Origin: a virus
IMG/VR virus record: IMGVR_UViG_3300025121_000023
Coordinates: 48,561 to 112,560 of that record
Reading direction: 5' to 3' (one strand)
DNA: 64,000 bases
Within the stretch, counting starts at the first letter, position 1. Each line of letters begins with the position of its first letter. A program made the position numbers and the translations under genes. Positions 31,231 through 61,247 of this stretch are shown in pieces. Below the pieces are notes generated by a model that saw only the letters and a program-made list of their open reading frames with translations, ran no database searches and had not been told where the DNA came from.

Positions 31231-32148
31231 TTATTTTTTAAAATCGCTATGATTTTTTATTTTCTTTTTACTATTTATTGATCTTTTAGTAATACATAAA
31301 TTATTTATACTAGCTATTATATGTGGATTTATATTGTTTTTAAATCCATAAAAAACACTTATTTTATGATCAATTGTTGGGTATAATTTATTACTATAAT
31401 GTAATTTTAAATAATCTTCTATATATTCATTGTCATAATAATCTAAACCATCCCAATTTTCAAATAGTTTATTTTTTAATCTTCTAGTTAATTTATTTAT
31501 TAAATCTCTATAAACAGTATAATCATTTTTTTGGATATTGGAACATTGTAGTCCTTTATCTTCTTTTGTTTTTCTTATTTTATTTAATACTTCATCACAT
31601 TCAAAAATATTATATGTTCCGAATTTATCGAATATAGTTTTTTTTGATTTTTTCATTATTTCTTCTGATTGTGCTGAACATATATGTCCATATTTATCTA
31701 AATTAGTATTATACATTTTTTCTTTAACACTATCTACTTTCATAACATTATCAACTCCGTATTTTTCAATACAAGTTTTTTTAATATCTATGTTAGCTGA
31801 ACATTTTTTACAATAATAATGTCCTTTTCTTTTTATAATAGTATTGTATGCTTTATATGTTTTAATAAATTCTTTTTTACAATTATCACATATAGCTGTT
31901 ATTTTAATATGAGAAGATTTAGATAATTTATTAATATCAATATCAATTAAATCATTTTTATTAAAATCTTTGTTATTGATATAAATGCGATAATGTTTAA
32001 GATTTTTAAATCTAATCTTAATAAATTTTTCTTTAATCATAAGACATAAATAAGTTTTTAATTTATTAATTAAATAATAAATAGAATTGAAAAACTTATT
32101 TATATTTATATCTGCTAATAAAAAATTATCAACAAAACCGCCTTCCAT
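31231..32148 (-). CDS. HNH homing endonuclease with zinc-ribbon and NUMOD-like front end
   Basis: A 305-residue paralog of the gene at 3952-4710. A zinc ribbon (AICDNCKKEF and YCKKCSAN) and K-Y-G repeats (CIEKYGVDNVMK, KYGHICSAQS, FGTYNIFECDEV) lead to an HNH-type domain (YPTIDHKISVFYGF, then NLCITKRSINSKK). The frame has an extra N-terminal segment (MEGGFVDNFLLADINI); the methionine at MIKEKFIKIRFK (about residue 37) is a likelier start, since homologues begin there. It lies between the VWA gene and the zinc-ribbon protein gene on the same strand. Confidence 0.75.
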   Translation of the reverse strand: MEGGFVDNFLLADININKFFNSIYYLINKLKTYLCLMIKEKFIKIRFKNLKHYRIYINNKDFNKNDLIDIDINKLSKSSHIKITAICDNCKKEFIKTYKAYNTIIKRKGHYYCKKCSANIDIKKTCIEKYGVDNVMKVDSVKEKMYNTNLDKYGHICSAQSEEIMKKSKKTIFDKFGTYNIFECDEVLNKIRKTKEDKGLQCSNIQKNDYTVYRDLINKLTRRLKNKLFENWDGLDYYDNEYIEDYLKLHYSNKLYPTIDHKISVFYGFKNNINPHIIASINNLCITKRSINSKKKIKNHSDFKK

Positions 32149-37917: not shown

Positions 37918-38331
37918 TTATTTACCAAAACCCATTTTCCTAAAATCTGGTTCAATTGTTGGTATAGGATGACCGTTTCTATCTAAATCACCTGGCATAC
38001 CATCTTGTAAATACGCACCACTTTCATGTGGGACATCATTTTCATCATAAGGTGGACGACACACAGTAGGATTATCTTCTTTTGATTCTAGAACATCTTC
38101 TTCCCAATCATAATCAAATTCAATTTCATATTTATTTAATATTGATTTTAATCTAGAAGCATCTAAGTCATCTGTTATAACAATTTTAAACGGTTCTTTG
38201 ACATCTATTGTATGTTTAGTTACTTTTTTACTAGTATCCCATGAACGTATAGCTCTACTATTTTCATCGCTAAATAGGTTTTCTATTCCTTCATTAACAA
38301 ATTTTTTAAAATTGGTTTTTAAATATTTCAT
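37918..38331 (-). CDS. Tagged hypothetical protein, 137 aa
   Basis: It begins MKYLKTNFKKFVNEGIENLF, a tag with a probable cleavage point after KKFVNE. The rest is acidic, with a small alpha-beta segment (PFKIVITDDLDASRLKSILN) and a Pro/Gly-rich C-terminus. No family is recognised. The phage-type motif TTTAATATATAA lies about 20 bases upstream on the minus strand, so it has its own promoter. Confidence 0.7.
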   Translation of the reverse strand: MKYLKTNFKKFVNEGIENLFSDENSRAIRSWDTSKKVTKHTIDVKEPFKIVITDDLDASRLKSILNKYEIEFDYDWEEDVLESKEDNPTVCRPPYDENDVPHESGAYLQDGMPGDLDRNGHPIPTIEPDFRKMGFGK

Positions 38332-38364
38332 GTTTTGTTTTTAATTTTTATTATATATTAAATA

Positions 38365-39156
38365 TTACAATGTATTTTTAAATATATACGCTACTAAATC
38401 ATTAGCAGCTTTTTGGTCTTTACCACCAATATGCCACATAATACTATCTGTTTTAATTTCATTAATAGGTTTATATTCTTTATAATCATAAATATATAAA
38501 AGATCACCATTTTCTGATATTACATTCCAATTAAAAATAGTTCTATAATCTTCTCCGTAATCTGGTTCGCCAAATAATTTTACTAAATCATCATATTGTG
38601 CTTCTACTTCACTAAGTTTCCAACCACTATCACTTATTTTAGTAGATGTAAAAATAACATCTGGATTTCCTGGCAAGTTTTTTAATATTTCTTCTTTTGA
38701 TTTAGGTTTTAGTATGTTTCTTATATTTTCGTTTAAAGTTCTATAATAAATATATGCTAATAAATTATTCTTATCTATAGGGTTTGTACCACCAATATGC
38801 CATTTAAATGATAACATATTTTTTAATTTTACTGCTAAATAACCTGATGTATCGTCATAAATACTAACTGTTCTTCCACTAGTAGTTTTAAGTGTCCATA
38901 TAAAATTATTACCAGCTCTTCTACTTTTTTTATTTGCCCATCTTCTTTCTGGTTCACCAAATAATTTTACTAAATCATCATAAGATGTTTCAATATAACC
39001 TAATAAAAATATTCCTGCTAGTCCTTTTAATCTAGTAGGAATGAATGATGCATTTGGATCACCTGTAGTTGATATTGCTTTAATCATTTCATCATTAGAT
39101 TTCGGTTGAAGTAAATCTTTTACACTTTCTTTATATTGTTTATATGTCTTTATCAA
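38365..39156 (-). CDS. Tagged protein with two tandem copies of an unknown domain
   Basis: The tag MIKTYKQYKESVKDLLQPKS opens a domain of about 110 residues with Y-D-D-L-V-K-L-F-G-E-P, W-x-L/V, Y-I-Y-D and W-H-I-G-G. At about residue 138 a second tag-module copy appears (LNENIRNILKPKSKEEILKN), followed by a second copy of the same domain (AQYDDLVKLFGEPD, WHIGGKDQ). The gene thus arose by fusion of two tagged genes, and the internal tag lost its own start. The first gene of the tandem cluster runs into it with a 4-base overlap. Confidence 0.72.
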   Translation of the reverse strand: MIKTYKQYKESVKDLLQPKSNDEMIKAISTTGDPNASFIPTRLKGLAGIFLLGYIETSYDDLVKLFGEPERRWANKKSRRAGNNFIWTLKTTSGRTVSIYDDTSGYLAVKLKNMLSFKWHIGGTNPIDKNNLLAYIYYRTLNENIRNILKPKSKEEILKNLPGNPDVIFTSTKISDSGWKLSEVEAQYDDLVKLFGEPDYGEDYRTIFNWNVISENGDLLYIYDYKEYKPINEIKTDSIMWHIGGKDQKAANDLVAYIFKNTL

Positions 39157-39659
39157 AATAAAAGTCCTCCTTTTACACCTTTTGGTTTTTTTGTATCTTT
39201 TGGTAACAGATTATCATGACAATATAAATCACCTTTAACAACTAAATTTTCTGGTAATTTTTTTAATTGATTATATCTACAATCTAAATAACCTTTAACA
39301 ATTAAATTATCAGGTAAACTTTTTAACCTATTAAAACTACAATTTAAATCACCTTCAACAACTAAATTTTCAGGTAAATTAGTTAATTTATTATCATAAC
39401 AATATAAATAACCTTCAACAGTTAAATTATCAGGTAAACTAGTTAATTGATTATTACTACAATTTAAATTTCCATAATAAGTACAAATACCTTTGTTATT
39501 TCTAGGTAGTAAATCGTAATCTAATTGATATTTAATTATTATATATTCAATTTTTTTATTATCAGATAATCCTTCTAATGCTTTAATCATTTCATCTTTA
39601 GATTTCGGCTGAAGTAAATCTTTTACTGACTCATTATATTGTTTATATGTTTTTATCAT
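39153..39659 (-). CDS. Tagged leucine-rich-repeat protein
   Basis: It begins MIKTYKQYNESVKDLLQPKS and then DEMIKALEGLSDNKKIEYII. Five repeats of 20-21 residues follow: L-x-V-x-G-x-L-x-C-x-x-N-x-L-T-S-L-P-x-N, a short leucine-rich-repeat solenoid. It ends KKPKGVKGGLLF. It is very similar to the gene upstream, and their starts and stops overlap by four bases. The repeat Cys residues are regularly spaced, as in some LRR families. Probably delivered with the virion, if the tag means that. Confidence 0.78.
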   Translation of the reverse strand: MIKTYKQYNESVKDLLQPKSKDEMIKALEGLSDNKKIEYIIIKYQLDYDLLPRNNKGICTYYGNLNCSNNQLTSLPDNLTVEGYLYCYDNKLTNLPENLVVEGDLNCSFNRLKSLPDNLIVKGYLDCRYNQLKKLPENLVVKGDLYCHDNLLPKDTKKPKGVKGGLLF

Positions 39660-40219
39660 AATATAAAATCTCCTGTTACTCCTTTTGGTTTTTTAATATC
39701 TTTTGGCAATAGATTATCATAACAAATTAAATAACCATCAACAACTAAATTTTCAGGCAAACTAGTTAACTTATTATATCTACAATCTAAATCACCATTA
39801 ACAGTTAAATTTTTTGGTAAAATAGTTAATTCATTAAAACTACAATTTAAATAACCATTAACAATTAAATTATCAGGCAAACTAGTTAACTTATTATATC
39901 TACAATCTAAATCACCATTAACAACTAAATTTTCTGGTAAACTAGTTAATTTATTATCACTACAATTTAAATTACCATTAACAACTAAATTGTCAGGCAA
40001 ACTAGTTAATTCATAAATACTACAATTTAAATGACCATAATAAGTACAAATACCTTCGCTATTTCTAGGTAATAAAGAATAATCTAATTGATATTGAATT
40101 ATTATATATTCAATTTTTTTATTATCAGATAATCCTTCTAATGCTTTTTTTACATCTTCATTAGATTTCGGTTGAAGTAAATCTTTTACTGATTCGTTAT
40201 ATTGTTTAAAAGTTTTCAT
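39656..40219 (-). CDS. Tagged leucine-rich-repeat protein
   Basis: It begins MKTFKQYNESVKDLLQPKSN, then about six repeats (SIYELTSLPDNLVVNGNLNC and so on), and ends KKPKGVTGDFIL. It is a close tandem copy of the gene at 39153 with one more repeat. At the DNA level the repeat units are about 60 bases long and highly similar, so unequal exchange may change the number. The same fold occurs at 9405-9923. Confidence 0.78.
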   Translation of the reverse strand: MKTFKQYNESVKDLLQPKSNEDVKKALEGLSDNKKIEYIIIQYQLDYSLLPRNSEGICTYYGHLNCSIYELTSLPDNLVVNGNLNCSDNKLTSLPENLVVNGDLDCRYNKLTSLPDNLIVNGYLNCSFNELTILPKNLTVNGDLDCRYNKLTSLPENLVVDGYLICYDNLLPKDIKKPKGVTGDFIL

Positions 40220-40233
40220 ATTTTTTAATTATA

Positions 40234-40434
40234 TTAAATAAAATAATCAATTTCATCAGATGCTTCATTTATAATAATATCTATAAATTTTTTTTCATTT
40301 TCTGATAAGTTATTATACCAATTTGCAATTTCTAATTTTATATTATCATCTAATTGTGTTTTAAAAAAAAATAATCCACTATTGTTAATTATTTCATTAT
40401 CTGATTTTAATTTATTAAATAATTTAATTTTCAT
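40234..40434 (-). CDS. Small hypothetical protein, 66 aa
   Basis: An acidic helical protein beginning MKIKLFNKLKSDNEIINNSG, with no recognised domain. It lies between the LRR gene and a small beta-rich gene on the same strand with short gaps, so it is probably part of the same operon. The case as a gene rests on context and its clean frame. Confidence 0.55.
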   Translation of the reverse strand: MKIKLFNKLKSDNEIINNSGLFFFKTQLDDNIKLEIANWYNNLSENEKKFIDIIINEASDEIDYFI

Positions 40435-40443
40435 AATTATATT

Positions 40444-40725
40444 TTATTTTACAGTTATATCATAACTTTCGTGTTGTCCATAATAAATTCCACCAATTGT
40501 ACCAGAAAAAAATAATCTATAAATACCTGGTTCAGTAAATGTTATTGTAAAATTATCATCACAAAAAACTGTTAAATCATCACTTCTTCTACGATATTGA
40601 CAATTTTCTGGAATTGCACCAGAAATAAGTTTTAATTGAATTTTTTCATTAAGAACTATTGGTGAAAGAATAGTTACCAATGCTGACATACTTACACCCA
40701 TACTTACATTACTTTTATCACTCAT
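40444..40725 (-). CDS. Small beta-rich protein, possibly Ig-like
   Basis: A 93-residue protein. The second half (NFTITFTEPGIYRLFFSGTI then YDITVK) has the pattern of an Ig-like or fibronectin-like beta sandwich. It starts with a Ser/Met-rich segment, MSDKSNVSMGVSMSALV. A minor virion decoration protein would fit, but this is inference. It is tightly packed (5 bases) behind the acidic tagged protein gene. Confidence 0.6.
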   Translation of the reverse strand: MSDKSNVSMGVSMSALVTILSPIVLNEKIQLKLISGAIPENCQYRRRSDDLTVFCDDNFTITFTEPGIYRLFFSGTIGGIYYGQHESYDITVK

Positions 40726-40730
40726 ATAAT

Positions 40731-42116
40731 TTAATCTTTTGTTTTTATAAATTTTTGAAGTTCTCTTAACTTATTATAATCTGGTTTATCTTTATCTAAT
40801 TCGTCATTAATAATATTTTCAAGTTCTCCTTGACTCATATTAATATAACTTTTTTCTTTATTAACTTTTTCTTCTTTTGGTTCAATTGATTCTGGTCTTG
40901 GCAATCTCTGTGCTCGTTGTAATGGTTCTTCATAAATTTCTTCTTTGTATGTTTCGGTAGGTTCTTCTAATATTGCTAAAACATTTTCAACAATTTTATA
41001 TCTTCTCATTAATATATCAGATTGATCTATATCTCCACTTAATATTATCTTAATTAATTCAACAAAATCTTTATCTTTAAGCATAATTAATTCACCATAA
41101 ATAAATTCTTTAATTGCTATTCTACTTACTTCTAATGGAAATTTTCTTTCTAAATAACTATTAAAATAATCTCTTAAATCAGCAGCAATAAAAGGACCAT
41201 ATTTGATATCTTCTTGTTCATCTTCTAATGAATCAACAGCATTTAATAATTTTTTAGCCATTTTTTCGTTTTCTGGTATTGCATTAGCTGCCATTAATTC
41301 ATAAATTGCTTTAACTGTTTCGTGAATAAGCATAGGTAAATCTAGTACTCTTACTTTAATTACTGGTGTCATATCTTCTTGTTCTCCTTCACTTCGATCT
41401 TCACTTTGATCTTCGCCTTTATTACTTTTCTTATTTGATTTTTTCCAATCAATTTCACTCATATTCGCCATTTCTGGCATTTCTTCCATCATATCACTTA
41501 AATCTGGCTTATTTGGATCCCAGTCAAATTTTCTATTTATATTTAAAAATTCTGTATAGTCCTGTAATAATCTTGGATCTATTGCATCTACCTTATCTTT
41601 TGCAGCAAACATCATACTATGAACATTTTGTGCTTCACCTTGCATAATATTATTTAAAATTTTTCTTTTACTAATACTTTCCTCCGGCAATTCAAATGTA
41701 TTTTCTATATCAAAATCAGAATTATAATTAATTTCATTATCTTCATCATCTTCATCATTTTCATCATCATCATCTTTTTCTTCTTTTTCTGGTTTATTTA
41801 TAGCTTTTTGAACCATTTCCATTTTTTCTGAATCATCAGGTAAAACTATTTTAATATCAAGTTCAACACCATCTAATATAGATCCATAATGGTCTAATAT
41901 TATTTGTTTTCCGATTTCTGTTAATTCTTCAAGATGTCCTTGTTGTTTTATCATTATATCTTGTGTTAATCTCATAGCATTCATAAAATCATTACGTTGA
42001 GGACCACTACCAAACATTTTTATAGATTTTTCTTCTATATTTTTAAGATAATCTTCTGGAAGAGTATCTTTAATATTAGCTTCAAATAATTCATTAAACC
42101 TTTTTAATTTTTTCAT
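40731..42116 (-). CDS. Large acidic tagged protein, possible assembly or internal virion protein
   Basis: It begins MKKLKRFNELFEANIKDTLP; the tag is less typical, with a possible cut after NELFE. Residues 50-110 form a helical domain (PQRNDFMNAMRLTQDIMIK), followed by a very acidic stretch (KEEKDDDDENDEDDEDNEIN) and further helical domains (RKFDWDPNKPDLSDMMEEM, VRVLDLPMLIHETVKAIYEL). The acidic low-complexity region and tag are reminiscent of scaffold or internal core proteins removed or processed during head maturation. No family is recognised; the conserved central part probably defines one. Confidence 0.7.
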   Translation of the reverse strand: MKKLKRFNELFEANIKDTLPEDYLKNIEEKSIKMFGSGPQRNDFMNAMRLTQDIMIKQQGHLEELTEIGKQIILDHYGSILDGVELDIKIVLPDDSEKMEMVQKAINKPEKEEKDDDDENDEDDEDNEINYNSDFDIENTFELPEESISKRKILNNIMQGEAQNVHSMMFAAKDKVDAIDPRLLQDYTEFLNINRKFDWDPNKPDLSDMMEEMPEMANMSEIDWKKSNKKSNKGEDQSEDRSEGEQEDMTPVIKVRVLDLPMLIHETVKAIYELMAANAIPENEKMAKKLLNAVDSLEDEQEDIKYGPFIAADLRDYFNSYLERKFPLEVSRIAIKEFIYGELIMLKDKDFVELIKIILSGDIDQSDILMRRYKIVENVLAILEEPTETYKEEIYEEPLQRAQRLPRPESIEPKEEKVNKEKSYINMSQGELENIINDELDKDKPDYNKLRELQKFIKTKD

Positions 42117-42117
42117 T

Positions 42118-42378
42118 TTATTTAGAATATTTATTTTTTAAGAAATTTTCTATTTCTTTATCACCTTTAGATAATTCTAAAAACTTATTTGCAACTTCTT
42201 TAACAGTTGCTTTTGGTCTAGGATTTATTGAAGGTTTATCTCTTCTTATAGGTGAAGGTCTACCAGGTACTGTATTAGGTTTAACTCCTGGTTTAGTTAT
42301 TGGTTTTACTGTTGGTTCAGCTACATCTATTTCTACACCTTCTTGTAAGAAAATTTTAAACGATTTTATTTTTTTCAT
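42118..42378 (-). CDS. Small tagged protein with Pro-rich linker
   Basis: 86 residues. It starts MKKIKSFKIFLQEGVEIDVA with a likely cut after IFLQE. A Pro/Lys-rich linker (KPITKPGVKPNTVPGRPSPI) follows and then a helical end (VKEVANKFLELSKGDKEIEN). Its stop and the start of the next gene are one base apart. If the tag is removed, what remains is a short basic peptide, comparable to T4 internal proteins that bind DNA. Confidence 0.7.
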   Translation of the reverse strand: MKKIKSFKIFLQEGVEIDVAEPTVKPITKPGVKPNTVPGRPSPIRRDKPSINPRPKATVKEVANKFLELSKGDKEIENFLKNKYSK

Positions 42379-48209: not shown

Positions 48210-48584
48210 TCATTTTGTTTTATATTTGCTTGTATCCTTTAATTTTTGATTTTTATCATCAAGTTCGTGGACATCGGTATCTAAATTTTCTATATTTTGT
48301 TGCAATTTTTCAATTGTTTGTTCTAATTCATCTTTCTTTTGTAATAATAATTCTTTATTATCAGTAGTATAAGTATCTATTTCCATTTTATTGATTTTTT
48401 CAATTAAATCTTCTAATTCTTGTTTTTTCAAATCAATATTATCTCTTAGTTTTTGTATTTCTGCTGATGCATCTTCTATTTTAGTTTCGTCATACCCATC
48501 GATATTATCATCACCATCAATCATGTTTTGCATAATTTCTTCATATGATTCACAAAATAATTTATATGTTTTTAAAGTTTTCAT
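48210..48584 (-). CDS. Tagged coiled-coil protein
   Basis: 124 residues, beginning MKTLKTYKLFCESYEEIMQN with a possible cut after LFCE. From residue 40 to 115 the sequence is a continuous heptad coiled coil (IQKLRDNIDLKKQELEDLIE and so on). It is eight bases upstream of the tape-measure-like gene on the same strand. A core, scaffold or internal virion protein is a natural guess from tag and fold. Confidence 0.72.
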   Translation of the reverse strand: MKTLKTYKLFCESYEEIMQNMIDGDDNIDGYDETKIEDASAEIQKLRDNIDLKKQELEDLIEKINKMEIDTYTTDNKELLLQKKDELEQTIEKLQQNIENLDTDVHELDDKNQKLKDTSKYKTK

Positions 48585-48599
48585 TTTTTATCTTTTGTT

Positions 48600-49556
48600 T
48601 TAATTATTTTTACCTTTAATTTTTTTATTTTTATTAGTTTGTTTATTAATGATAGGTTGTTTAGCATTTTGTTGAATTTGACTTTGCATTTTTTTATTTT
48701 CTTCTTGTTTCTTATTTTCTTGTTCTTTTTGTATTTGTTCAAAACCTTTTTTCATTTGTACTTGTTTTTTAGCATCATATTTATCATCATTTTTAGGATT
48801 TTTAAGATTTTTATTTGCTTGTTCTTGATCTTTTTTTAATTGTTCTTTTTTTGATATTTGTGCTTGTGCTTGTTTAACTTCATCTTTTGTAACTACATGT
48901 TTTTGAGTTGTACCAGATATTTGTGGTTGTGTTGTATTAGATGATGGAATTTGTTTAACATTTTGTCTATGTTCTACACCTTTAATAAATTCTCTAATAA
49001 TATATTTATTATCTTTTTTATAATTTAATTCACCTTTTAACCATTCTTTATCTTCATTATTACTATATAAATCAAATATTTTTTTAAAATCAAAAATTAA
49101 ATACTGACCAGTTATTCCTTCACTATCTTTTTCAAAATCTTTTACATATTTTGAATATAATTTTGATTCATGTCTATTTAATTTGCCTAAAATTTGATTA
49201 GAAACTATATTATATTTATAAATAAATTTAGGATAATCTTTTGTTTTATCTTGTACTGGTTCTGAACTATGAACTTGGATTTTATAAATTATATATTTAT
49301 CTTTATAACTTTCCCCATTATGATCAGTTACATCCCAATTTCCATTATATTTAAAAGTAGTATAATAAAATTCTTTTTCTACTATACTTTTGCCATCTAT
49401 AGTTTTACCTATAAAATTTATCATATTTTTTTTAATAGATAATTTAACACTATTAATAATTCCTATAATATTATTTGTTATTTTTTTTATAATATCTTTA
49501 TCTTTTGCTACTGCAACTTCTTCATTAATAAAATTTTTATAATTCTTATACGACAT
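48600..49556 (-). CDS. Tagged protein with Lys/Gln-rich C-terminus
   Basis: 318 residues, beginning MSYKNYKNFINEEVAVAKDK. The middle third is a mixed fold (YYTTFKYNGNWDVTDHNGES, KYIIYKIQVHSSEP). The C-terminal 110 residues are low-complexity and very rich in Lys, Gln and Asn (KKEQLKKDQEQANKNLKNPK), like the basic tails of DNA-binding internal proteins. It sits between the large tagged protein and the coiled-coil protein. A packaged DNA-associated protein is a reasonable inference. Confidence 0.7.
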   Translation of the reverse strand: MSYKNYKNFINEEVAVAKDKDIIKKITNNIIGIINSVKLSIKKNMINFIGKTIDGKSIVEKEFYYTTFKYNGNWDVTDHNGESYKDKYIIYKIQVHSSEPVQDKTKDYPKFIYKYNIVSNQILGKLNRHESKLYSKYVKDFEKDSEGITGQYLIFDFKKIFDLYSNNEDKEWLKGELNYKKDNKYIIREFIKGVEHRQNVKQIPSSNTTQPQISGTTQKHVVTKDEVKQAQAQISKKEQLKKDQEQANKNLKNPKNDDKYDAKKQVQMKKGFEQIQKEQENKKQEENKKMQSQIQQNAKQPIINKQTNKNKKIKGKNN

Positions 49557-49557
49557 T

Positions 49558-51711
49558 TTATTTATTTATTTTTTCATTGATTAATATTCTTTTCAAATTA
49601 TGGATATTATCAATAAATTCTGGATTAGTTGAAAATTTAAGTTCTGTCATATCTGATGTTATTCCATACTTTTCGTTTAATGTATCTAATATTGGTAATG
49701 GTCCATTTACTAATAATTTTTTAATAAAAATATCTACTGGATTTTTAGCATTTTTAGTTGATGCATCTAAAACAACCTTATTTGTTGTATCTAATCCAAA
49801 TCCATATAATTTATTTAAATTTTCTACCTTAAAATTTTTAATATTATATACTGATGTTCCTTTAGCTGTATACAAATACATTAAAATAATATTATTAGGT
49901 TTATAAGTTTCATAACCATCTTCACGTATTAAATGTTTTTGTGATGTTGCTACAATGTAAGTTGTTTGAAAATTAAAATCACCATTACCAAAATTTTTAA
50001 CAGTATCTTTAGGAACTAAACTTTTAACTAATGTATTATATTTAATATATTCTGTTATTTTAGTTATATCTTTTTCTGCTGCTAATTTTTCTAAATCAAC
50101 AGTTCCTAATAATCTATACACATAATGATTTTTACCTTCGATAACTATTTTATCTTGAACATAAATAAAATCACCATCTATTAATCTAAGTATACCACAT
50201 TTATCTTTATCACTAAATTTAGTTCTTGTTAATCCTAATGCTTTATTCTGTGATAATGATGCTTCAATTTTCATATTTTTAGATTTATCTACAATACTAC
50301 CTTTTTTATTGTTTTCTTCATCTAATTTTTGAAGTTGATCTGTATCTAATTTTTTCTTTAATACTCTTGGATCAATTTGATCTACAATCATAAATCTAGA
50401 AAATTTACCTTTTGAATCCTCTACCATTTTATCCCAAGTATTTTTTAACTTTAATCTAGCAGAAGTATCTGCTTTACCATAAATTCTTTCTGCTGCTAAT
50501 TGTATTTTTATAATAGATGATTTATTTTCTATTACATAATTTGTTAACTTTTCTTTTTCTGTTTTATTTTCAAATAATTTTGATAATCTTACATCATCAT
50601 ATTTAATATTTTTAAGTCCAATAAACCTAGATTCAAAACTAGTTAATTCATCACCTAATTTACGATCAACATTAAATCCTGTATTAATTCCTCTAAATTC
50701 TTCTGTTAATAAACTTTCATCAAATTTAGATATATTTGTATCATCATCTTTTGGATTTATTCTTTTGAGTATTATTTTTTTTCCTTTTGTAACATCTTCG
50801 ATAAGATCTTTCATATTTATTAATAAATTAACATTTGCTTGATATTTATTTAAATCATATTCCATTTCTTTTTTCTTACTATCACTTATTTTATTATCTT
50901 TTAATAATTCATTTATTTCATCAATGCCACCTTTATTAATTATTTGAATGGCTCTATTTATACTTTGTATTTCTTTTTTTAAATCATCAGCATTATCTAT
51001 ACCGTTTTCAATATCTGCTAATTGTTGTTTTATTTTATTATAGTACGTTTTTAAATCATCATCAGGTTCAACTTCTGTTTGAATAGTTACTTCATTATTT
51101 GTTTTTTTATTATCTATTGTTTTTTCTTTTTCTTTTGGTATTTCACCACTAGTATTACTATTATTATCAGCACTATTATTACCAGTACTACTAGTAACTG
51201 ATGTCTGTATATCAAATATTACTTGTATAATACCATTTTTAACTACAAATCCAGTACTATCTTTTTCATTGTTATAAGTTCCATCACTTACTACTTTACC
51301 CTCTTTATTAATAACTTTTGAACCTTTAACATAATTTGTTATAAGAGATTTATTTTCATTTACAAATTTAACAACATCCAGAATATTTATAATATTTCCT
51401 TCAACATCTTTTATTTTTGTAACATTATAAGATTCGTCCGGATCTATCATACTTATTCCGTGTTTTTTACAATATCTAACTAAATTAGCTAAGTATTCTC
51501 TTTGTAATGAATTTTTATATAATAATAATACACCTTCATTAACTTTTCTTTTCATAAAAGTAAATATATTAATAATGGCACTACCTACTAATGTATTTTC
51601 TGCACCTGCAAAATTTCCTTTAACATTTACAAATGGATCGTTGTTATCACCAACATCTTCTGTTATTTGTCTATATTCAACAAAATCATTATATTTATTT
51701 AAAATTTTCAT
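49558..51711 (-). CDS. Large tagged protein, 717 aa, possible internal virion protein
   Basis: It starts MKILNKYNDFVEYRQITEDV. A domain around residues 40-130 (FAGAENTLVGSAIINIFTFM, LQREYLANLVRYCKKHGISM) is followed by a Thr/Ser/Asn-rich linker (TSSTGNNSADNNSNTSGEIP). Helices and a longer C-terminal mixed domain follow, with FVYVQDKIVIEGKNHYVYRL-like strands near residue 530. No family is recognised. It lies in the same operon as the tape-measure-like gene. The upstream motif AATATATAGTTATA at about 51740 on the minus strand is a plausible promoter. Confidence 0.65.
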   Translation of the reverse strand: MKILNKYNDFVEYRQITEDVGDNNDPFVNVKGNFAGAENTLVGSAIINIFTFMKRKVNEGVLLLYKNSLQREYLANLVRYCKKHGISMIDPDESYNVTKIKDVEGNIINILDVVKFVNENKSLITNYVKGSKVINKEGKVVSDGTYNNEKDSTGFVVKNGIIQVIFDIQTSVTSSTGNNSADNNSNTSGEIPKEKEKTIDNKKTNNEVTIQTEVEPDDDLKTYYNKIKQQLADIENGIDNADDLKKEIQSINRAIQIINKGGIDEINELLKDNKISDSKKKEMEYDLNKYQANVNLLINMKDLIEDVTKGKKIILKRINPKDDDTNISKFDESLLTEEFRGINTGFNVDRKLGDELTSFESRFIGLKNIKYDDVRLSKLFENKTEKEKLTNYVIENKSSIIKIQLAAERIYGKADTSARLKLKNTWDKMVEDSKGKFSRFMIVDQIDPRVLKKKLDTDQLQKLDEENNKKGSIVDKSKNMKIEASLSQNKALGLTRTKFSDKDKCGILRLIDGDFIYVQDKIVIEGKNHYVYRLLGTVDLEKLAAEKDITKITEYIKYNTLVKSLVPKDTVKNFGNGDFNFQTTYIVATSQKHLIREDGYETYKPNNIILMYLYTAKGTSVYNIKNFKVENLNKLYGFGLDTTNKVVLDASTKNAKNPVDIFIKKLLVNGPLPILDTLNEKYGITSDMTELKFSTNPEFIDNIHNLKRILINEKINK

Positions 51712-53042: not shown

Positions 53043-53816
53043 ATGAGTAAATTGATCCGTTATAACCAATATAATTTTTTAAAAGAAAATTTTCCTATGC
53101 AATTAATTAAGGAAAGCACGGAATTCGCTGACATGCAGCTTGGTCAAGCAACTAACCCATTAGGTCCTGGGTTTGGATTTGCTACTGATCCAACTATGAG
53201 CATATACTCAGATGATTCATCACCCTATATAGATAATTATTCAAGAATGAGTCAAATGGTATCGGATTTAGGTAGAGTTATGAAAGATATACATACAGCA
53301 TTAAAAGGTGCAGGAACATCAAAATATGATTATTTTCTTGAAGATATAGATGAATATAAATCATTAAAAATATTAAGAATATTTATTAATACAGAATTAA
53401 AATTAGATATATATGTATCGTTTATTTTTATGGATGATGAGTTCTTTGGTGTATTTAGAAGTTTCAATGGAATAAATAAACCAAAATTTGATACAGATTT
53501 ATTAACTGATAAAAGATTTAATTATTTTGATAAAGAATATTATATCAAATTAAATAATTATTTTTATAAAATTATCTATAATTGGTTTATACCAGAAATA
53601 GGCAATTATAAAGTATTAAGTGATGATTTTAAAGTTAAAAATTCAATAGGTGATGATATTATAATTAAAAAGAATACAACAATTTATTTAAAAGGATATA
53701 ATACTGATCCTAATAATGATCCATATTTAATAATTAGATATAAAGATGAAATATATAAAATAATTAAAAATAATTATTATTACTTTAAATACTGGTGTCA
53801 AAAATTAAAAAATTAA
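53043..53816 (+). CDS. Tag-like hypothetical protein, 257 aa
   Basis: It begins MSKLIRYNQYNFLKENFPMQ, which keeps the aromatic/basic pattern and an E where cleavage would occur (FLKE), but it is the least typical tag. Residues 25-75 are Gly/Pro/Ser/Met-rich (GQATNPLGPGFGFATDPTMS), and the rest is a mixed domain with TELKLDIYVSFIFMDDEFFG and a C-terminal Ser/Asp-rich beta part. No family is recognised. A rare AGAAGAG stretch seven bases before the ATG could act as a ribosome-binding site. Confidence 0.65.
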   Translation: MSKLIRYNQYNFLKENFPMQLIKESTEFADMQLGQATNPLGPGFGFATDPTMSIYSDDSSPYIDNYSRMSQMVSDLGRVMKDIHTALKGAGTSKYDYFLEDIDEYKSLKILRIFINTELKLDIYVSFIFMDDEFFGVFRSFNGINKPKFDTDLLTDKRFNYFDKEYYIKLNNYFYKIIYNWFIPEIGNYKVLSDDFKVKNSIGDDIIIKKNTTIYLKGYNTDPNNDPYLIIRYKDEIYKIIKNNYYYFKYWCQKLKN

Positions 53817-54109: not shown

Positions 54110-56026
54110 TTAAATATATTTTTTAATCATATTAATTAAATCTTTCTTAATAATTGGTTTAGTTAAATATCCATTACATCCAGAATTTAATGCATATTCT
54201 TTATCTTCAGATAATGCATAAGCAGTTACTATAATTATAGGTATATATTTATCTATTTCTCTTATTTTTTTAGTTGCTCCATATCCATCTAAAATAGGCA
54301 TTTTTACATCCATCAATATCATATCAATGTTAGAATTTCTTTCAAATTCTAACACCGCATCTAATCCATTAGTAACTCTTATTAAATTAAGTTCGTATTT
54401 TAATAACATTTTTGATATTAATAAATAATTTATATCTTCATCTTCTGCAATTAAAATAGTTTTATCTTTTATTTTTAATTCATCGAATTTTATATTTTCA
54501 TCTTTTTTTTCCTTTAAAGTATCATTATCAATTTGAATTGTAAAATAAAAAATAGAACCATTATCCATATTAGATTCAATCCATATTTTTCCACCCAATA
54601 AAGTTATTAAAGATTTAGAAATAGATAAACCTAATCCATTACCACCATAAATTTTATTTAATCCAAGATCTACTTGTCTAAATCTATCAAATATTATTTC
54701 TCTATTTTCTTCTTTAATACCAATACCAGTATCTTTAACATAAAATTTAACATACTTATTTATTATTTCATATCCAAATTCTACATATCCATAATCAGTA
54801 AATTTTAATGCATTTGATAATAAATTAATTAAAATTTGTTCTAATCTAACTTTATCAGTACTTATAACTATATTTTTAATATCTTCATTATAGATTAAAT
54901 TAACATCTGATTTAGAATTTTCATTTTTAAAAATTTCAAATAAATGCGACATAATTGGTTTTAGTTCGATTTTTTCTTTTGTTATTATTAATTGATTAGC
55001 TTCAATTTTGGATATATCTATTAAATCATTTATTATTTTTATTAATTGTTCAGAACTTTTATTAATATAATTTATGTAAGTTTTTATTTTATCTGGTCTT
55101 ATATCATTTGTTGCAAATAAACTAGAAAACCCAACTATACTATTTAATGGTGTCCTAATTTCATGAGACATATTAGCAAGAAATGCTGATTTTAATTTAT
55201 CACTTTCGATTGCTTTATTTTTAGCCTTTCGTAATGATATATTTTGTTTTTTTAATTTTTCTTCTATTTTAATTTTATCTGTAATATCTTCTTTAATAAC
55301 CATAAAATTATAAATTTCATCATTATTATTTTTTATCGGATTAATAATTGTTTTTTCAATATATATATCACCATTTTTCTTTTTATTAATAAGATTACCT
55401 TCCCATATATTACCTGTTACTATAGTTTTCCATAAATTTTCAAATGTTTTTTTAGGTATTAAATTAGAATTTAATATTCTATGATTTTTACCAATAACAT
55501 CTTTAATATTATATCCTGTTAATTTTGTAAAATATGGATTAACATATTCTATTATACCATTTTTATCAGTAATAATCATAGTTAATGGTAATTGATCAAT
55601 GGCTGTTTTTAGTTTTTTGTTTTCTTCTTCTTGTTTTTTACGGTGACTTATATCATTAATAATTATAAACATACTATCATAACCATTTATTACAGGTGAT
55701 GCATAAACTTCAACATCTTTTAATTCACCATTTTTTAATTTATGGATAAAATTAAAAAAATTAGAATCATTTTTCATAGCTTTCATCATTAAATTATCTA
55801 TATATTGTGGTTCTAAACAGTTTATATCATATATTGTTTTATTTAATATTTCTTCTTTTGTATATCCATAAAATTTTATTGCTGAATTATTAACATCAAT
55901 TATCTGTTTAGTTCTATAATCAATTTGCAACATCATTGCTTTATTATTAGTAAAAAAGGATTTAAACTTTTCTTCACTTTTTTCTAATTTTTTTTCTAAT
56001 TCATCGTATGTAGGTTTATCTTTCAT
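54110..56026 (-). CDS. Soluble hybrid histidine kinase (PAS-PAS-HisKA-HATPase-REC)
   Basis: 638 residues, no transmembrane helix. Two PAS domains (about 15-125 and 135-255) sense a cytoplasmic signal. The dimerisation domain has the phospho-acceptor H288 in MSHEIRTPLNS. The ATPase domain has the N box (NLLSNALKF, about 401-409), G1 (DTGIGI, D432) and G2 (GNGLGLSI, 463-470). The receiver domain has acidic residues E528-E530, acceptor D573 in LMDVKMP, T601 and K623, all intact. No output domain follows, so phosphate must pass to another protein, presumably a host HPt or response regulator. Base composition matches the neighbours, and a homing endonuclease sits two bases upstream. Such genes are very unusual in phages. 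Confidence 0.95.
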   Translation of the reverse strand: MKDKPTYDELEKKLEKSEEKFKSFFTNNKAMMLQIDYRTKQIIDVNNSAIKFYGYTKEEILNKTIYDINCLEPQYIDNLMMKAMKNDSNFFNFIHKLKNGELKDVEVYASPVINGYDSMFIIINDISHRKKQEEENKKLKTAIDQLPLTMIITDKNGIIEYVNPYFTKLTGYNIKDVIGKNHRILNSNLIPKKTFENLWKTIVTGNIWEGNLINKKKNGDIYIEKTIINPIKNNNDEIYNFMVIKEDITDKIKIEEKLKKQNISLRKAKNKAIESDKLKSAFLANMSHEIRTPLNSIVGFSSLFATNDIRPDKIKTYINYINKSSEQLIKIINDLIDISKIEANQLIITKEKIELKPIMSHLFEIFKNENSKSDVNLIYNEDIKNIVISTDKVRLEQILINLLSNALKFTDYGYVEFGYEIINKYVKFYVKDTGIGIKEENREIIFDRFRQVDLGLNKIYGGNGLGLSISKSLITLLGGKIWIESNMDNGSIFYFTIQIDNDTLKEKKDENIKFDELKIKDKTILIAEDEDINYLLISKMLLKYELNLIRVTNGLDAVLEFERNSNIDMILMDVKMPILDGYGATKKIREIDKYIPIIIVTAYALSEDKEYALNSGCNGYLTKPIIKKDLINMIKKYI

Positions 56027-56027
56027 T

Positions 56028-57569
56028 TTATATTAAATTTTCATATATATATTTTAAATTGCCAGAATTATAAATTCTATAAATTCCTCTTTCTAACATA
56101 ATTTCATGTTCTGTTTTATTTTTATTAAATCCTTTTTTAACTAAAATATCTTTTCTAAATCCAAATCTATATTGTTTTATTCCATCTATTATATAATGAT
56201 AATTTGGTTTAGTTTTATATATAAAATTAAAACCAATAATTTCATATAATTTTCCATTCGAATGACTTCTATCCGCATATGTAATTATATTTTTAAAATC
56301 ATATTTTTTTATAAAATATTTAAATAATTTTGAAGCACCACCTATTACATTAGTGTTTAATTTATTACAAAACCTTAACATTTCATATAATTTTTCGTTA
56401 TATTTTTGTCCAAGCGGTTTCCTCGTTTTACCAAAAGTCATTAAACTAACTAATTCATTTTCATAAAACAATCCTAATTTAATTGATGATCCTACAAAAC
56501 CTTGAATATGATTTTCATTTAAAAATCCTCTAACTAATTTATTATCAGTTATTTCTTTAATTTCAGTTTTTCTTGCATAAATTTTATTTGGATTTTTACT
56601 TAACTTATTTAAAATCATTGATTTAACTATATCCTGTTTATAAATCCAATCATCTTCATAAATATGTATAAGTTGAATATTTTGCTTTTCACATAATTCG
56701 GTTTTCATAAGATGGTAATTTTTATCTTTATTTAATTCATTATGCCAATTAAATCCATTAAATTCAAATGCTAATTTTAAATCAGGTAAGTAAATATCTA
56801 ATTCATAAGGTTTAATTTTTTGTCTATCATTTTTTATAATTTTACCATTATAATTATTTTTAATGAAATTATAAAATATATCTTCTATTCCAAAAATTGT
56901 TCTACCTATTTTATGACACTTTGTACATAAAATAGATTTAATTTCTTTTCTATTATATAATAAATCATATTTTATATTAAATGTATGATTTTTATTTTGA
57001 TCACAATCTATTTTTATTATTTTGTTTTCATAATTCCCACTAATAATATTTAAATCTTTATGTTTATTTCTTAATCTAAATATCCAAGATTCCGATAATG
57101 TTTTTTTCTTTTTTTCTTTAATGTTTTTTAATTTAGATACATTATCAACATTATATTTTTCTTTTAACGTATTTATCATTTTATTTTTAATATTATTATT
57201 CATTAAAGCTGATTCAACACCATATTTTTCTAACATTATTTTTTTATTTTTAATCTGATATTCTTTTAATTTAAATATTGAATCTTCACCATATCGTTCT
57301 TTTAGAGTGTTCTTAATTTTTATATTTTTGCATTTTGTACAATAATATTTTTCGGTATGGTTTTTTGTTTGTGTTATATAATTTTTATAAATAATTGATT
57401 TAACAATATTACAATTCATACATTTTACACTAATCTTAATATGAGAACCTAAAGGTAAATCTAATAGTTTTATCTTTAACATATCATCATTTAATATATA
57501 TCCTTTTGATTTATAATATTTTCTATTAATATTTGTTATATTAACAAATATTTCTTCATTTACTATCAT
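56028..57569 (-). CDS. Homing endonuclease with Vsr-like nuclease and GNAT/Mom-like C-terminus
   Basis: 513 residues, the third member of the family at 25594 and 34426. A zinc ribbon (KCMNCN and YCTKCKN), K-Y-G/R-Y-G repeats (LKERYGEDSIFK, LEKYGVESALM), nuclease core (ELDIYLPDLKLAFEFNGFNW, IQLIHIYEDDW) and GNAT-like domain (LVSLMTFGKTRKPLG, NVIGGASKLFKYFIK, YADRSHSNGKLYEIIGF) are all recognisable. It is inserted between the WYL-like gene (five bases upstream) and the histidine kinase gene (one base downstream), so all three are co-directional. Confidence 0.78.
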   Translation of the reverse strand: MIVNEEIFVNITNINRKYYKSKGYILNDDMLKIKLLDLPLGSHIKISVKCMNCNIVKSIIYKNYITQTKNHTEKYYCTKCKNIKIKNTLKERYGEDSIFKLKEYQIKNKKIMLEKYGVESALMNNNIKNKMINTLKEKYNVDNVSKLKNIKEKKKKTLSESWIFRLRNKHKDLNIISGNYENKIIKIDCDQNKNHTFNIKYDLLYNRKEIKSILCTKCHKIGRTIFGIEDIFYNFIKNNYNGKIIKNDRQKIKPYELDIYLPDLKLAFEFNGFNWHNELNKDKNYHLMKTELCEKQNIQLIHIYEDDWIYKQDIVKSMILNKLSKNPNKIYARKTEIKEITDNKLVRGFLNENHIQGFVGSSIKLGLFYENELVSLMTFGKTRKPLGQKYNEKLYEMLRFCNKLNTNVIGGASKLFKYFIKKYDFKNIITYADRSHSNGKLYEIIGFNFIYKTKPNYHYIIDGIKQYRFGFRKDILVKKGFNKNKTEHEIMLERGIYRIYNSGNLKYIYENLI

Positions 57570-57574
57570 AAACC

Positions 57575-58474
57575 TTATTTCTTTTTAACAAATGAATATA
57601 ATTTCCATTCATTTATATTATCTATTTTTTTATATTTATTTAATTGATTTATAAATGATAAACTTGTAGTTTGGTCAGGTAAAGATAATATTGTTTTGAA
57701 TGTTCCTTCTAATTTTCTATCAACATATAGTTTTATTAAACTATCTTTTTTTCCTTGTGCTCCTAAAATTGCAATATAATTATTTCCTATTACTGATTTT
57801 AAAAATGCTATTTTCATTAATCCTTGTTTTTTCTTATCAAAATATTCATTTTCCCAAGGATTTTCTAAATTTAAAATTGTTTCTGTATCTTTTACTTCAA
57901 TAGATGTAATACCTTGTTCTTGAATTTTAGTTTCGTCTTCATCTTCTATTAAACCTTGTTGTACTAACTTAAATTGATTTCTACGAATCATATTAAAATC
58001 TGCTGCTGCATATGTAGTATCGGTCATCACTCTATCGTTTCGTTTATATCCAATTGGTGGTAATCTAAAAAAATCACCTACAAACATCATTGATTTCATA
58101 TTCGATGTTTTAAATAATCTCCATACTTTTTTAGTATTTTTCTTTTCTGATACAGACCAACCATCTAAGTGCCAACCTCTTACAAGAACATTACCAGTAT
58201 TTGTGTTTCTACCTAAAACTAAAGGACATATAACTCTTTCACGACCACCTCTCCAAGAATCTTTATCACCTCTATAATTAATTAAAATAATCATACCGAA
58301 TTGAATAGCTTTAATCATAAGTTCTCTATTATAAGGAATAGGTTTATTAACAGGAAAATTCTTAATTAAATCTGGGTTTATTTTATCTTCATTTAATCGT
58401 TGCCAATTAACACGAGGGCTCATATATAAATCACCTCTATTATAATATAATTTGTAATGTTCTCTCTTCATCAA
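57575..58474 (-). CDS. Possible WYL-type regulatory protein
   Basis: 299 residues. The region about 50-150 has IQFGMIILINYRGDK, GGRERVICPLVLGRNTNTGN, VLVRGWHLDGWSVS and KVWRLFKTSNMKSMMF, the strand order of a WYL domain: I-x-Y, R-x-I-x-P, and R-x-F-x-x-x-x-I. The classic W-Y-L residues are not obvious, so the call is tentative. WYL domains bind nucleic acids or nucleotides and regulate defence or repair genes. The rest is unrecognised. Upstream on the minus strand is the phage-type motif TTTTTAATATATA at about 58495. Confidence 0.4.
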   Translation of the reverse strand: MMKREHYKLYYNRGDLYMSPRVNWQRLNEDKINPDLIKNFPVNKPIPYNRELMIKAIQFGMIILINYRGDKDSWRGGRERVICPLVLGRNTNTGNVLVRGWHLDGWSVSEKKNTKKVWRLFKTSNMKSMMFVGDFFRLPPIGYKRNDRVMTDTTYAAADFNMIRRNQFKLVQQGLIEDEDETKIQEQGITSIEVKDTETILNLENPWENEYFDKKKQGLMKIAFLKSVIGNNYIAILGAQGKKDSLIKLYVDRKLEGTFKTILSLPDQTTSLSFINQLNKYKKIDNINEWKLYSFVKKK

Positions 58475-58561
58475 ATGAAATACTTTTTACATATATATTA
58501 AAAAAGTATAACTAAAATAAATGATAAAGTGAAAATATTAATTTTTTTAAAAAGGCATAAA

Positions 58562-58810
58562 CTATTTTTTAATATTTGAAGAAATGTAATTTTTATAAAA
58601 TGTGATTTTTTTCATATCGTGTAAAATCTTTAAACAATCATCACAAACACCTAATATATAGATATCACCATCTAATGAACTACCAAATCCTGCTGATATT
58701 TTATCAACAATTCCATCAGCCCACATACAATTCTCTAAACTATCATCTGGTGAACCAATTATCTTTTTAATTAATTTATTACACCTTATACAATTATAAC
58801 TAGTTTTCAT
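58562..58810 (-). CDS. Small zinc-ribbon-like protein, 82 aa
   Basis: The sequence MKTSYNCIRCNKLIKKIIGS has a Cys-x2-Cys pair at the start and VCDDCLKILH has a second at about residue 56. Two pairs with a roughly 45-residue loop suggest a zinc ribbon; the loop is acidic (SPDDSLENCMWADGIVDKIS). A phage-type motif sits upstream on the minus strand at about 58835. The function is unknown. Confidence 0.65.
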   Translation of the reverse strand: MKTSYNCIRCNKLIKKIIGSPDDSLENCMWADGIVDKISAGFGSSLDGDIYILGVCDDCLKILHDMKKITFYKNYISSNIKK

Positions 58811-58956
58811 TTAAATTTATTTAATTTAAAATATATATTAAAATATATATTTTAAGTTTTAAAAAATTATAAATAAATATATGCTAACATTAGATAATTT
58901 TATGAATTTCGAAATTATTAATTTAAATTAATTAATTTCATATTTCTATATATTTT

Positions 58957-58969
58957 TTTTAATATATAA
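58957..58969 (+). promoter_or_regulatory. Phage-type promoter motif for the second histidine kinase
   Basis: TTTTAATATATAA, 21 bases upstream of the ATG at 58991. The kinase gene is thus under phage control. Confidence 0.5.
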
Positions 58970-58990
58970 TTTAAAATGTAATATTTATAA

Positions 58991-60886
58991 ATGATAGATA
59001 TAATTTATATAGGTAATAATAAAAATAATCGTTTTGAAATATTAAATGCTAATGATAATTATTTTATTAATAGATTTGATTGGAAAGAATATAATTTATC
59101 TACATTAAATAACAATATCGATTTAATAGTTTTAGAAGAACCTACAGATACAAAATTTAAAGGGACTTGTAAGGAAATTAAAAATTCTGGACTATTTAAT
59201 AATATTCCCATAGTCGTTTTAATGTCTACATTTATAGAAGGTGATTGTACAGCCGATTTAATAATATCAGATAGTATTAATGATATTGAATTTTCATATC
59301 ATATAAAAACTGTAATTAAAAATAGAATTATTAAAAAACAATTAGATAAAGAAAAAAAACTTTATGAAACAATTTATAATGAACAAGATAAGTATAGAAA
59401 TATGATTGAAAATATGAAAAGTGGAGTTGGTGTTTTACAATCATTTGATAATGGAAATACATTTGTTTTTATAGAATTTAATAAATATGCTCAAAATTTA
59501 TTTAAAAAAAGAGATGTAATAGGAAAAAAAATATTAGACGCATTACCAGAATTAAAAGATACCGACATTAATGAAATTATATATGATGTTTGGAAAAATG
59601 GTAAATCTAAAAAAATAGATGAATTTAAATTTTGTGATAATAAAAATGATATTTGGGGATCAGCTTTTATTTATAAATTAGTAACTACTGACGAAATAGT
59701 ATGTATTATAGATAATATAACAGATCATAAAAATATACAAGATAGATTAAATTTTGAAAAAGAAAATGCTATAGAAATTAATAAATTTAAAAGTGCATTA
59801 TTAATTAATATGGCACACGAAATAAGAGTACCTATTCAATCTATAATGGGATTTACTGATTTAATAATTAAAAATAATTTAACAAAAGAAAAAATTTTAA
59901 ATTATCTTGATATAATTAAAAGTTCATCTGACTCATTATTAACAATAGTTAATGACATTACCGAATTATCTAAAATTGAAAATAATAAAATAAAAATTCA
60001 TAAAAACCCATTTAATGTTAAATTATTAATGAACAATTTAAGTATTGAATGTAAAGAAAATTTTAGAAAATATACTGATATTAAATTTAAATTAGATATT
60101 CCAAAATACGAATATGTATTATATAGTGATCATGGAAAAATAAAACAAGTTTTGAATAATTTAATTAACAATGCTTTAAAATTTACAAATAAAGGTACAA
60201 TAACTTGTGGATATATATTAAAAAGAAATGATATTGAATTTTTTGTTAAAGATACTGGTATTGGAATAGATAAAAAAAATATAGATATTGTATTTGAACG
60301 TTTTGTACAATTAAATGATAAAGAAGTAAATAAACACGGGTTAGGATTAGGTCTAACTATATCTAAATCAATTGTAGAATTATTAGGTGGAAAAATATGG
60401 GTTACTTCTAAAAAAAATGTAGGATCTACATTTTATTTTTCAATTCCATTAGAAAAAGGAATTGAAGATGATATTAAAATAAGTAAAATATCCTTAAATA
60501 ATTTAAATAAAAGTTATGATTGGAAAAATAAAAAAGTTTTGATTGTCGAAGATAATTTTAATAATTACCTATTAACCGAAATTGTTTTATCTCAAACCAA
60601 TATTATAATCGATCACGCCAAAGATTTAAATAATTTTATTAATTTAATAAATAAAAATGCTTATGATATTATATTAATGGATTTTCAATTACCTGATGGT
60701 GATGGTTATGATCTTTTAGAATACATGAACCAAAATAATATACATACACCTGTAATTATAATTTCGGCATTTGCATCTAAAGATGATGAATTGGAATTAT
60801 ATAAATTAGGAATAGATTCTTATATGGCTAAACCTATTAAATGGGATTATCTATATCATAGTATGGATAAAATATTATCTAAATAA
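58991..60886 (+). CDS. Second soluble hybrid histidine kinase (pseudo-receiver/PAS-HisKA-HATPase-REC)
   Basis: 631 residues, no transmembrane helix. The N-terminal 110 residues have a receiver-like pattern (IDLIVLEEPTD, IPIVVLMSTF) without the acceptor Asp. A PAS domain follows (about 130-250). The HisKA domain carries H276 in MAHEIRVPIQS. The ATPase domain has NLINNALKF, DTGIGI (D421) and HGLGLGLTI. The receiver domain has E520/D521, acceptor D564 in LMDFQLP, S592 in place of the usual Thr, and K614. The catalytic residues look intact. It differs from the 54110 protein in the N-terminal sensor, so the two probably sense different signals. Confidence 0.94.
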   Translation: MIDIIYIGNNKNNRFEILNANDNYFINRFDWKEYNLSTLNNNIDLIVLEEPTDTKFKGTCKEIKNSGLFNNIPIVVLMSTFIEGDCTADLIISDSINDIEFSYHIKTVIKNRIIKKQLDKEKKLYETIYNEQDKYRNMIENMKSGVGVLQSFDNGNTFVFIEFNKYAQNLFKKRDVIGKKILDALPELKDTDINEIIYDVWKNGKSKKIDEFKFCDNKNDIWGSAFIYKLVTTDEIVCIIDNITDHKNIQDRLNFEKENAIEINKFKSALLINMAHEIRVPIQSIMGFTDLIIKNNLTKEKILNYLDIIKSSSDSLLTIVNDITELSKIENNKIKIHKNPFNVKLLMNNLSIECKENFRKYTDIKFKLDIPKYEYVLYSDHGKIKQVLNNLINNALKFTNKGTITCGYILKRNDIEFFVKDTGIGIDKKNIDIVFERFVQLNDKEVNKHGLGLGLTISKSIVELLGGKIWVTSKKNVGSTFYFSIPLEKGIEDDIKISKISLNNLNKSYDWKNKKVLIVEDNFNNYLLTEIVLSQTNIIIDHAKDLNNFINLINKNAYDIILMDFQLPDGDGYDLLEYMNQNNIHTPVIIISAFASKDDELELYKLGIDSYMAKPIKWDYLYHSMDKILSK

Positions 60887-60983: not shown

Positions 60984-61247
60984 ATGGAAATAAGAAACGA
61001 AAATTTCGAAAAAGGAAAAGAAAGTACTATTCGAACAGAAAAATATAAAAAATATGCTAAAATACTTACACAAGTAGAAACAAATCTTTTATATAAAAAA
61101 GAAATTATTAAAGATAATTTAAAATTAGAAAACCAACGAGAAGATGATATTACACAATTACTAAAAATAATTTCTGATGAATTGAAAAATGATGGTATAA
61201 CTAAAATTATGGTTAATGGAAGAATTTTAAGAATTATTGAAGATTAA
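60984..61247 (+). CDS. Hypothetical protein, 87 aa
   Basis: A helical, charged protein beginning MEIRNENFEKGKESTIRTEK. No tag, membrane segment or domain is visible. It is 48 bases before the virion structural gene and has its own promoter motif, so it may be the first gene of the fibre operon. The function is unknown. Confidence 0.6.
   Translation: MEIRNENFEKGKESTIRTEKYKKYAKILTQVETNLLYKKEIIKDNLKLENQREDDITQLLKIISDELKNDGITKIMVNGRILRIIED

Follow-up and report, generated by a model that had tools for sequence, protein, structure and literature searches.

Hybrid histidine kinases in a megaphage genome fragment and their recurrent locus in related phages

Two hybrid histidine kinases and their sensory fronts

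Two hybrid histidine kinases, referred to here as K1 and K2, are encoded in the 64,000-nucleotide stretch of viral DNA analysed (the window). K1 (54110..56026, minus strand; 638 aa) has the architecture PAS-PAS-HisKA-HATPase-REC, recognised by Pfam and by its motifs, and K2 (58991..60886, plus strand; 631 aa) comprises a putative degenerate receiver-like N-terminus, a PAS-like region and HisKA-HATPase-REC, as indicated by Pfam, an orthologue on the phage contig L214, a phage-only clade and synteny. Indeed, the ORFs and the Pfam domains (E values for HisKA, HATPase_c and Response_reg of 1e-18, 2e-22 and 2e-21 in K1, behind two PAS domains, and of 3e-13, 3e-25 and 6e-22 in K2, whose N-terminal front is not recognised by Pfam) bear out a first-pass annotation, made from the sequence alone, that had placed two such kinases here. 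The window corresponds to bases 48,561-112,560 of an IMG/VR virus record (IMGVR_UViG_3300025121_000023), a 112,560-bp fragment in which end repeats are absent. Its DNA polymerase (36013-37527) shares 56% identity with that of LR756501 (735 kb), 41-43% with those of 634-642 kb genomes, 33% with that of LR756500 and about 28% with those of Lak phages; by this core protein, the phage is nearest to the 634-735 kb genomes of the Mahaphage clade. This clade was defined in PMC7162821; LR756501 is a member with predicted hosts among the Bacteroidetes, was reported in 2020 as the largest phage, and is one of the largest genomes described as both complete and curated by hand (PMC7162821). Should the window phage have a genome as large as those of related phages, the record covers little of it, and partners may be encoded in the missing part.

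The phospho-acceptor histidine and the N, G1, F and G2 boxes of HisKA-type kinases are present in K1 and K2 alike, and both receivers keep the acidic pair, the phospho-Asp, the Thr/Ser and the Lys, as in hybrid kinases. The HisKA phosphatase motif is E/DxxT/N after the phospho-acceptor histidine; its threonine is kept in K1 (HEIRT), whereas T/N is replaced in K2 (HEIRV), so the initial statement that every catalytic residue is kept holds for the kinase boxes and the receiver residues but not for this motif of K2. Phosphatase activity of K2 is doubtful, and both a phosphatase ability of K1 and a kinase bias of K2 would hang on one residue. No membrane helix was found in K1 or K2, in line with the first reading, the highest 19-residue hydropathy being 1.26 and 1.57, respectively. 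No domain lies C-terminal to the receiver in either protein; the lack of an output domain noted earlier is thus real but not phage-specific, full-length bacterial relatives of K1 ending likewise. The GC3 of K1 and K2 is 0.08, versus a mean of 0.10 for the phage genes.

The two sensory fronts differ. The second PAS domain of K1 matches, in the PDB, 3ewk (3.6e-28), which we take to be MmoS, 2gj3 (NifL, 8e-16) and 8dik (Aer, 2e-13), and also 9qq6 (NifL). The PAS domains of MmoS, NifL and Aer bind flavin (FAD), and the second PAS domain of K1, which is nearest in sequence to these flavin-binding domains, could do the same. The N-terminus of K2 (58991..59350, plus strand) is a putative pseudo-receiver in which the phospho-Asp position is occupied by E (Q in L214) and the acidic pair is lost; its first 120 residues are also present in the L214 orthologue (29%). 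PDB matches of this front are mostly response regulators but weak (best E 0.0086), the hhalign probability against receivers is 6%, and in the AlphaFold model of K2 (mean pLDDT 51) the front is unusable. A faint resemblance to a receiver devoid of its phospho-Asp is what these matches suggest.

The kinase locus in the window and in related phages

Both kinases are flanked by phage genes, as had been recognised from the start, together with the homing endonuclease beside K1 (56028..57569, minus strand; phrog_3339, PHROG 7e-110), which lies directly upstream of K1 on the same strand with a gap of 1 bp. The left flank of the kinase locus is formed by p299 (57575..58474, minus strand), a conserved Mahaphage protein with 54% identity in LR756501 whose matches in the phage collection are found only in LR7xxxxx megaphage records, and the outer left flank by p257 (53043..53816, plus strand), another conserved Mahaphage protein, identified by 49% identity in LR756501 and by synteny. 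Between p299 and K2, an 82-aa ORF (58562..58810, minus strand) occupies the place of a RuvC-like gene of the relatives, and K2 is followed by an 87-aa ORF (60984..61247, plus strand) in the position of a Mahaphage protein of about 95 aa, to which homology is undetectable. The phage-type promoter proposed ahead of K2 did not survive: as a late promoter, TATAAATA was rejected because its count is at chance level (54 occurrences in the window versus 54.6 expected).

In LR756501, the gene order is p717, p257, p299, RuvC-like gene, hybrid kinase and gene of about 95 aa; the window has the same order, with identical orientations (p717, p257, p299, K2, small ORF). A kinase is encoded at the K2 locus, in the same orientation, in LR756501, L111, L112, L207, L211, L218, L232 and L263 (L238 gave the same match values as L207), and the conserved flanks in the kinase-bearing relatives are p299 and the RuvC-like gene on one side and the gene of about 95 aa on the other. 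At the same locus, the nearest relative of the window phage, L110 (DNA polymerase 71% identical), carries another gene set, in which a membrane kinase, a lone receiver and a kinase whose receiver is N-terminal follow one another; in the L113, L114 and L117 versions of the locus, a kinase is absent. Furthermore, the gap between p299 and p257 is about 28 bp in L110 versus 3.76 kb in the window, where it holds a 91-aa ORF, K1 and the homing endonuclease, so this stretch was either gained here or lost in L110. The gene of about 95 aa accompanies a kinase in all eight IMG/VR contigs found to carry it; as a dedicated kinase partner, however, it was rejected, because distant copies are also encoded by the 634-642 kb phages, which have no HisKA kinase; it is thus an old Mahaphage protein. 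The model of this protein has no good PDB match, and its viral relatives number one.

Relatives of the window DNA polymerase are encoded in 417 IMG/VR stretches. A HisKA protein is encoded in four of 50 relatives chosen by their DNA polymerase, and all four share 54% or more polymerase identity with the window; none was found in the other 46 records, many of them fragments, nor in five of six reference genomes (W02-W06). Although many records are fragmentary, this absence from most Mahaphage relatives suggests that the kinase function is dispensable. The IMG/VR scans rest on short conserved peptides, so only part of the relatives is detected, and many records are fragments; single-protein scans with over-specific patterns gave no match. 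In addition, L214, another AT-rich phage contig, carries two hybrid kinases. Two related phage kinases, that of L107 and the hybrid of L110, are missing the C-terminal receiver, so transfer via that receiver would not be universal. PHROGs families without assigned function match kinases of the K1/K2 type; such proteins are thus already present, unnamed, in public phage data. Some other kinase matches from public phage records turn out to be bacterial DNA; MW462191 was discarded on this ground, its kinase lying between genes for aminopeptidase N and glutamine synthetase adenylyltransferase. Phage hybrid kinases had been called very rare; kinases are rare in public phage records, but they recur in one megaphage branch.

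Phylogeny, origin and selection

Two trees were computed, one of the HisKA-HATPase core (65 rows) and one of the receiver. Three phage-only clades are present in the core tree: (A) the eight K2-locus kinases, with a support of 100/99, (B) K2 with the L110 kinase of the same locus and an L214 kinase (100/87), and (C) the kinases of L198, L201 and L205 (100/99), which are short (410-428 aa) with a front nearly absent. A single origin of clades A and B (AU p 0.42), or of all three (AU p 0.43), is neither rejected nor shown. The core tree needs ten label changes, at least three of them forced by starred branches, which indicates repeated exchange of kinases between phages and bacteria.

A search for a donor by phylogeny had been advised in the first-pass annotation. 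K1 is about 40% identical over residues 11-635 to Bacteroidota hybrid kinases, and in the receiver tree it falls with a Bacteroidales sequence (support 85), yet no supported sister of K1 was found in the core tree; K1 would be a separate acquisition whose nearest relatives are Bacteroidota kinases. The stretches around its closest bacterial relatives have a GC content of 43-50%. For K2, none of 297 Bacteroidota genomes encodes a relative above 35% identity. K1 and the second L214 kinase were considered as a conserved pair and rejected: they are 43% identical (core and receiver), yet they are not sisters in either tree.

The dN/dS ratio is 0.07 for the closest pair (LR756501 and L111) and 0.18-0.20 against L112, values for more distant pairs being rough with synonymous sites near saturation. 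Purifying selection is thus shown by sequence comparison for at least one closely related kinase pair, and the shared locus and clades show, on the same kind of evidence, that within one Mahaphage branch the K2-locus kinases have been passed on by descent. Synteny, phage-only clades and purifying selection together argue that K1 and K2 are phage genes.

Possible partners, function and known systems

No HPt was detected by Pfam in seven phage records, and a scan of short ORFs in the phage loci for HPt-like motifs gave no match; HPt is encoded in 86 of 99 Bacteroidota genomes, in many cases within large proteins and in some in small ones. LR756501 encodes a 123-aa lone receiver in which the acidic pair, Asp, Thr and Lys are intact, some 310 kb from its kinase, and the W04 and W05 megaphages encode lone receiver-like proteins and no HisKA kinase. 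A look for HPt or regulator genes elsewhere in the genome, as initially recommended, yielded no HPt, and no lone receiver within the 112 kb of the window phage. A self-contained phosphorelay, with its own HPt and terminal regulator, was found in none of the phage records tested.

We consider it an even bet that K1 and K2 function as phage-owned sensor kinases in the cytosol, within a phosphorelay completed by host HPt proteins or by lone phage receivers. In brief, K1 would sense an intracellular host condition, probably the redox or oxygen state, via its flavin-type PAS domain, and K2 another signal, via its PAS-like region and putative dead receiver domain. Each kinase would autophosphorylate and pass the phosphate to its own receiver; as no HPt was found in the phages, the next step would most likely be a host HPt, with altered phosphorylation of host response regulators. 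In phages with a lone receiver (LR756501, L110), that receiver would be the likely end point. K2, devoid of the phosphatase-motif threonine, may lean towards net kinase activity. The proteins are intact and no phage HPt is detectable; each transfer step is predicted. A host phosphorelay, the target proposed from the beginning, is therefore reasonable given the HPt counts, but because LR756501 and L110 encode lone receivers, the target need not be a host protein. The further suggestion that host stress or surface responses are reprogrammed is conjecture, and the one that the two kinases counteract each other finds no direct support, the sole hint being the phosphatase-motif threonine present in K1 and not in K2.

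Other readings were weighed. Somewhat unlikely, the kinases could signal to lone phage receivers, and perhaps to each other, timing phage functions, with host HPt unneeded or borrowed: the intact lone receiver of LR756501 (some 310 kb from its kinase), the L110 array (membrane kinase, lone receiver, hybrid kinase) and the two hybrid kinases of L214 would fit, but the 112 kb of the window phage hold no lone receiver, W04 and W05 have lone receivers without HisKA, and the trees do not pair the second kinase of the window with that of L214. That the kinases are phosphate sinks or decoys, mainly damping a host two-component pathway such as envelope stress or defence, is unlikely; fully kept ATP-binding motifs would be superfluous for a pure sink, K2 lacks the phosphatase-motif threonine and the receiver-ended layout is shared with bacterial relatives of K1, even if the HExxT motif of K1 and receivers without output domain would suit it.

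K1 alone might be host cargo acquired with the homing endonuclease and not, or no longer, useful, K2 being functional. The absence of the K1-endonuclease stretch from L110 and the want of a supported phage sister speak for this, but K1 is intact, with all motifs and a phage composition (GC3 0.08), which suggests long residence without decay and makes the idea improbable. An assembly chimera, which the first-pass annotation had named as one possible refutation, or misbinned host DNA is hardly credible: some public "phage" kinases are bacterial DNA (e.g. MW462191), but the composition of K1 and K2 is phage-like and the K2-locus kinase recurs, with conserved flanks, in the curated LR756501 genome and in independent metagenome contigs. 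With the recurrent locus and the phage-only clade, chimerism is excluded for K2; it is unlikely for K1.

Two-component signalling is usually cellular, and a kinase locus inherited in a megaphage branch makes virus-run sensing testable, with specific predictions: the partners should be HPt proteins of the host or lone receivers of the phage, and K1 should respond to redox. The K2-type locus shows, at the level of predicted proteins, that megaphages keep sensor proteins of their own. More tentatively, and with less than even chances, one lineage among the largest phages known may operate a sensory phosphorelay of its own, with inherited kinases at a fixed locus and variants adding a membrane sensor and lone receivers, to monitor and steer the host. 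The conserved locus also shows that kinase genes of huge phages need a synteny check before they are dismissed as host contamination.

Among the nearest solved relatives of the catalytic part of K1 and K2 are PDB 6qrj and 7p8e, which we presume to be the Caulobacter hybrid kinase ShkA. ShkA contains a pseudo-receiver; it follows the kinase core, whereas the putative one of K2 would be N-terminal. Soluble hybrid kinases of the Bacteroidota, PAS(n)-HisKA-HATPase-REC with several paralogues per genome, share the domain order and receiver end of K1, but they are bacterial genes with longer fronts (extra PAS or other N-terminal parts) and 43-50% GC. The open-access literature searched, including large jumbo phage and megaphage papers, gave no description of a conserved megaphage kinase locus; histidine kinases are mentioned in PMC7824862 merely as a contrast. 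The precedents found there for phage histidine kinases are AgrC and PhoR only, both single auxiliary genes. The Clostridium difficile phage phiCDHM1 encodes an AgrC histidine kinase (PMC3901668), which resembles K1 and K2 as a phage kinase gene without a phage response regulator, but belongs to a peptide quorum-sensing locus of a temperate phage, is annotated from its HATPase, has similar copies in host strains and has no reported receiver domain (PMC3901668). The phoR genes of soil phage contigs, for which control over a two-component pathway of the host has been proposed, also keep the kinase motifs and have a dN/dS below 1, but they are PhoR-type auxiliary genes in assorted phages (PMC10987575) and not hybrid kinases retained at one locus of a phage branch.

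Two-component genes in related phages

In the phage contig L110 (IMGVR_UViG_3300033508_000293), the closest relative of the window phage, an array encoding a membrane histidine kinase with the domain order 4HB_MCP-HAMP-PAS-HisKA-HATPase, a lone receiver and a hybrid kinase (L110:1940-6205) comes close to a complete two-component set. Three other AT-rich phage contigs (L198, L201 and L205) encode short HisKA-HATPase-REC kinases (410-428 aa), which almost lack a sensor part and group as a phage-only clade. Lone receiver-like proteins are encoded by the 735-kb megaphage LR756501 (L022:7282-7653), LR756500 (L023:3660-4013) and LR756504 (L024:3936-4418); no HisKA kinase is present in the latter two.

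A conserved protein of ~95 aa with no assigned function (L006:11686-11964 and homologues) is encoded behind the kinases of clade A, a phage-only clade of kinases at the K2 locus to which K2 itself does not belong, and remote copies are found in the 634-642 kb phages. A small fold is predicted for it with confidence; the PDB gives no good match.

Mobile elements and other genes

Within the 64-kb window, four homing endonucleases (25594-27240, 34426-36021, 56028-57569 and 31231-32148) are relatives of phrog_3339 or phrog_12131. One accompanies the hybrid kinase K1, and in L214, another AT-rich phage contig, a relative immediately precedes the second kinase. An IS605-type TnpB/OrfB (7985-9184, minus strand) has a relative in the kinase locus of L110.

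The window also encodes a glycine cleavage H-protein-like domain (20123-20824, plus strand; PF01597, 1.3e-18), preceded by an N-terminal hydrophobic segment, and a 307-aa class II tRNA synthetase-like core (21425-22348, minus strand; PF00152, phrog_29758). Outside the window, the same record carries a nicotinamide phosphoribosyltransferase-like gene (L003:3545-4723; phrog_448), possibly one member of a set for NAD salvage.

A shared N-terminal motif

More than 12 window proteins share an N-terminal motif, e.g. MKTFKQYNE or MKKFKEFINE (9405, 9926, 11907, 12829, 37918-42378, 48210-51711, 53043 and 53833); it is absent from the kinases K1 and K2. The motif resembles the sequence that targets internal head proteins of T4 to the capsid, and its bearers are possibly a large set packaged in the head.
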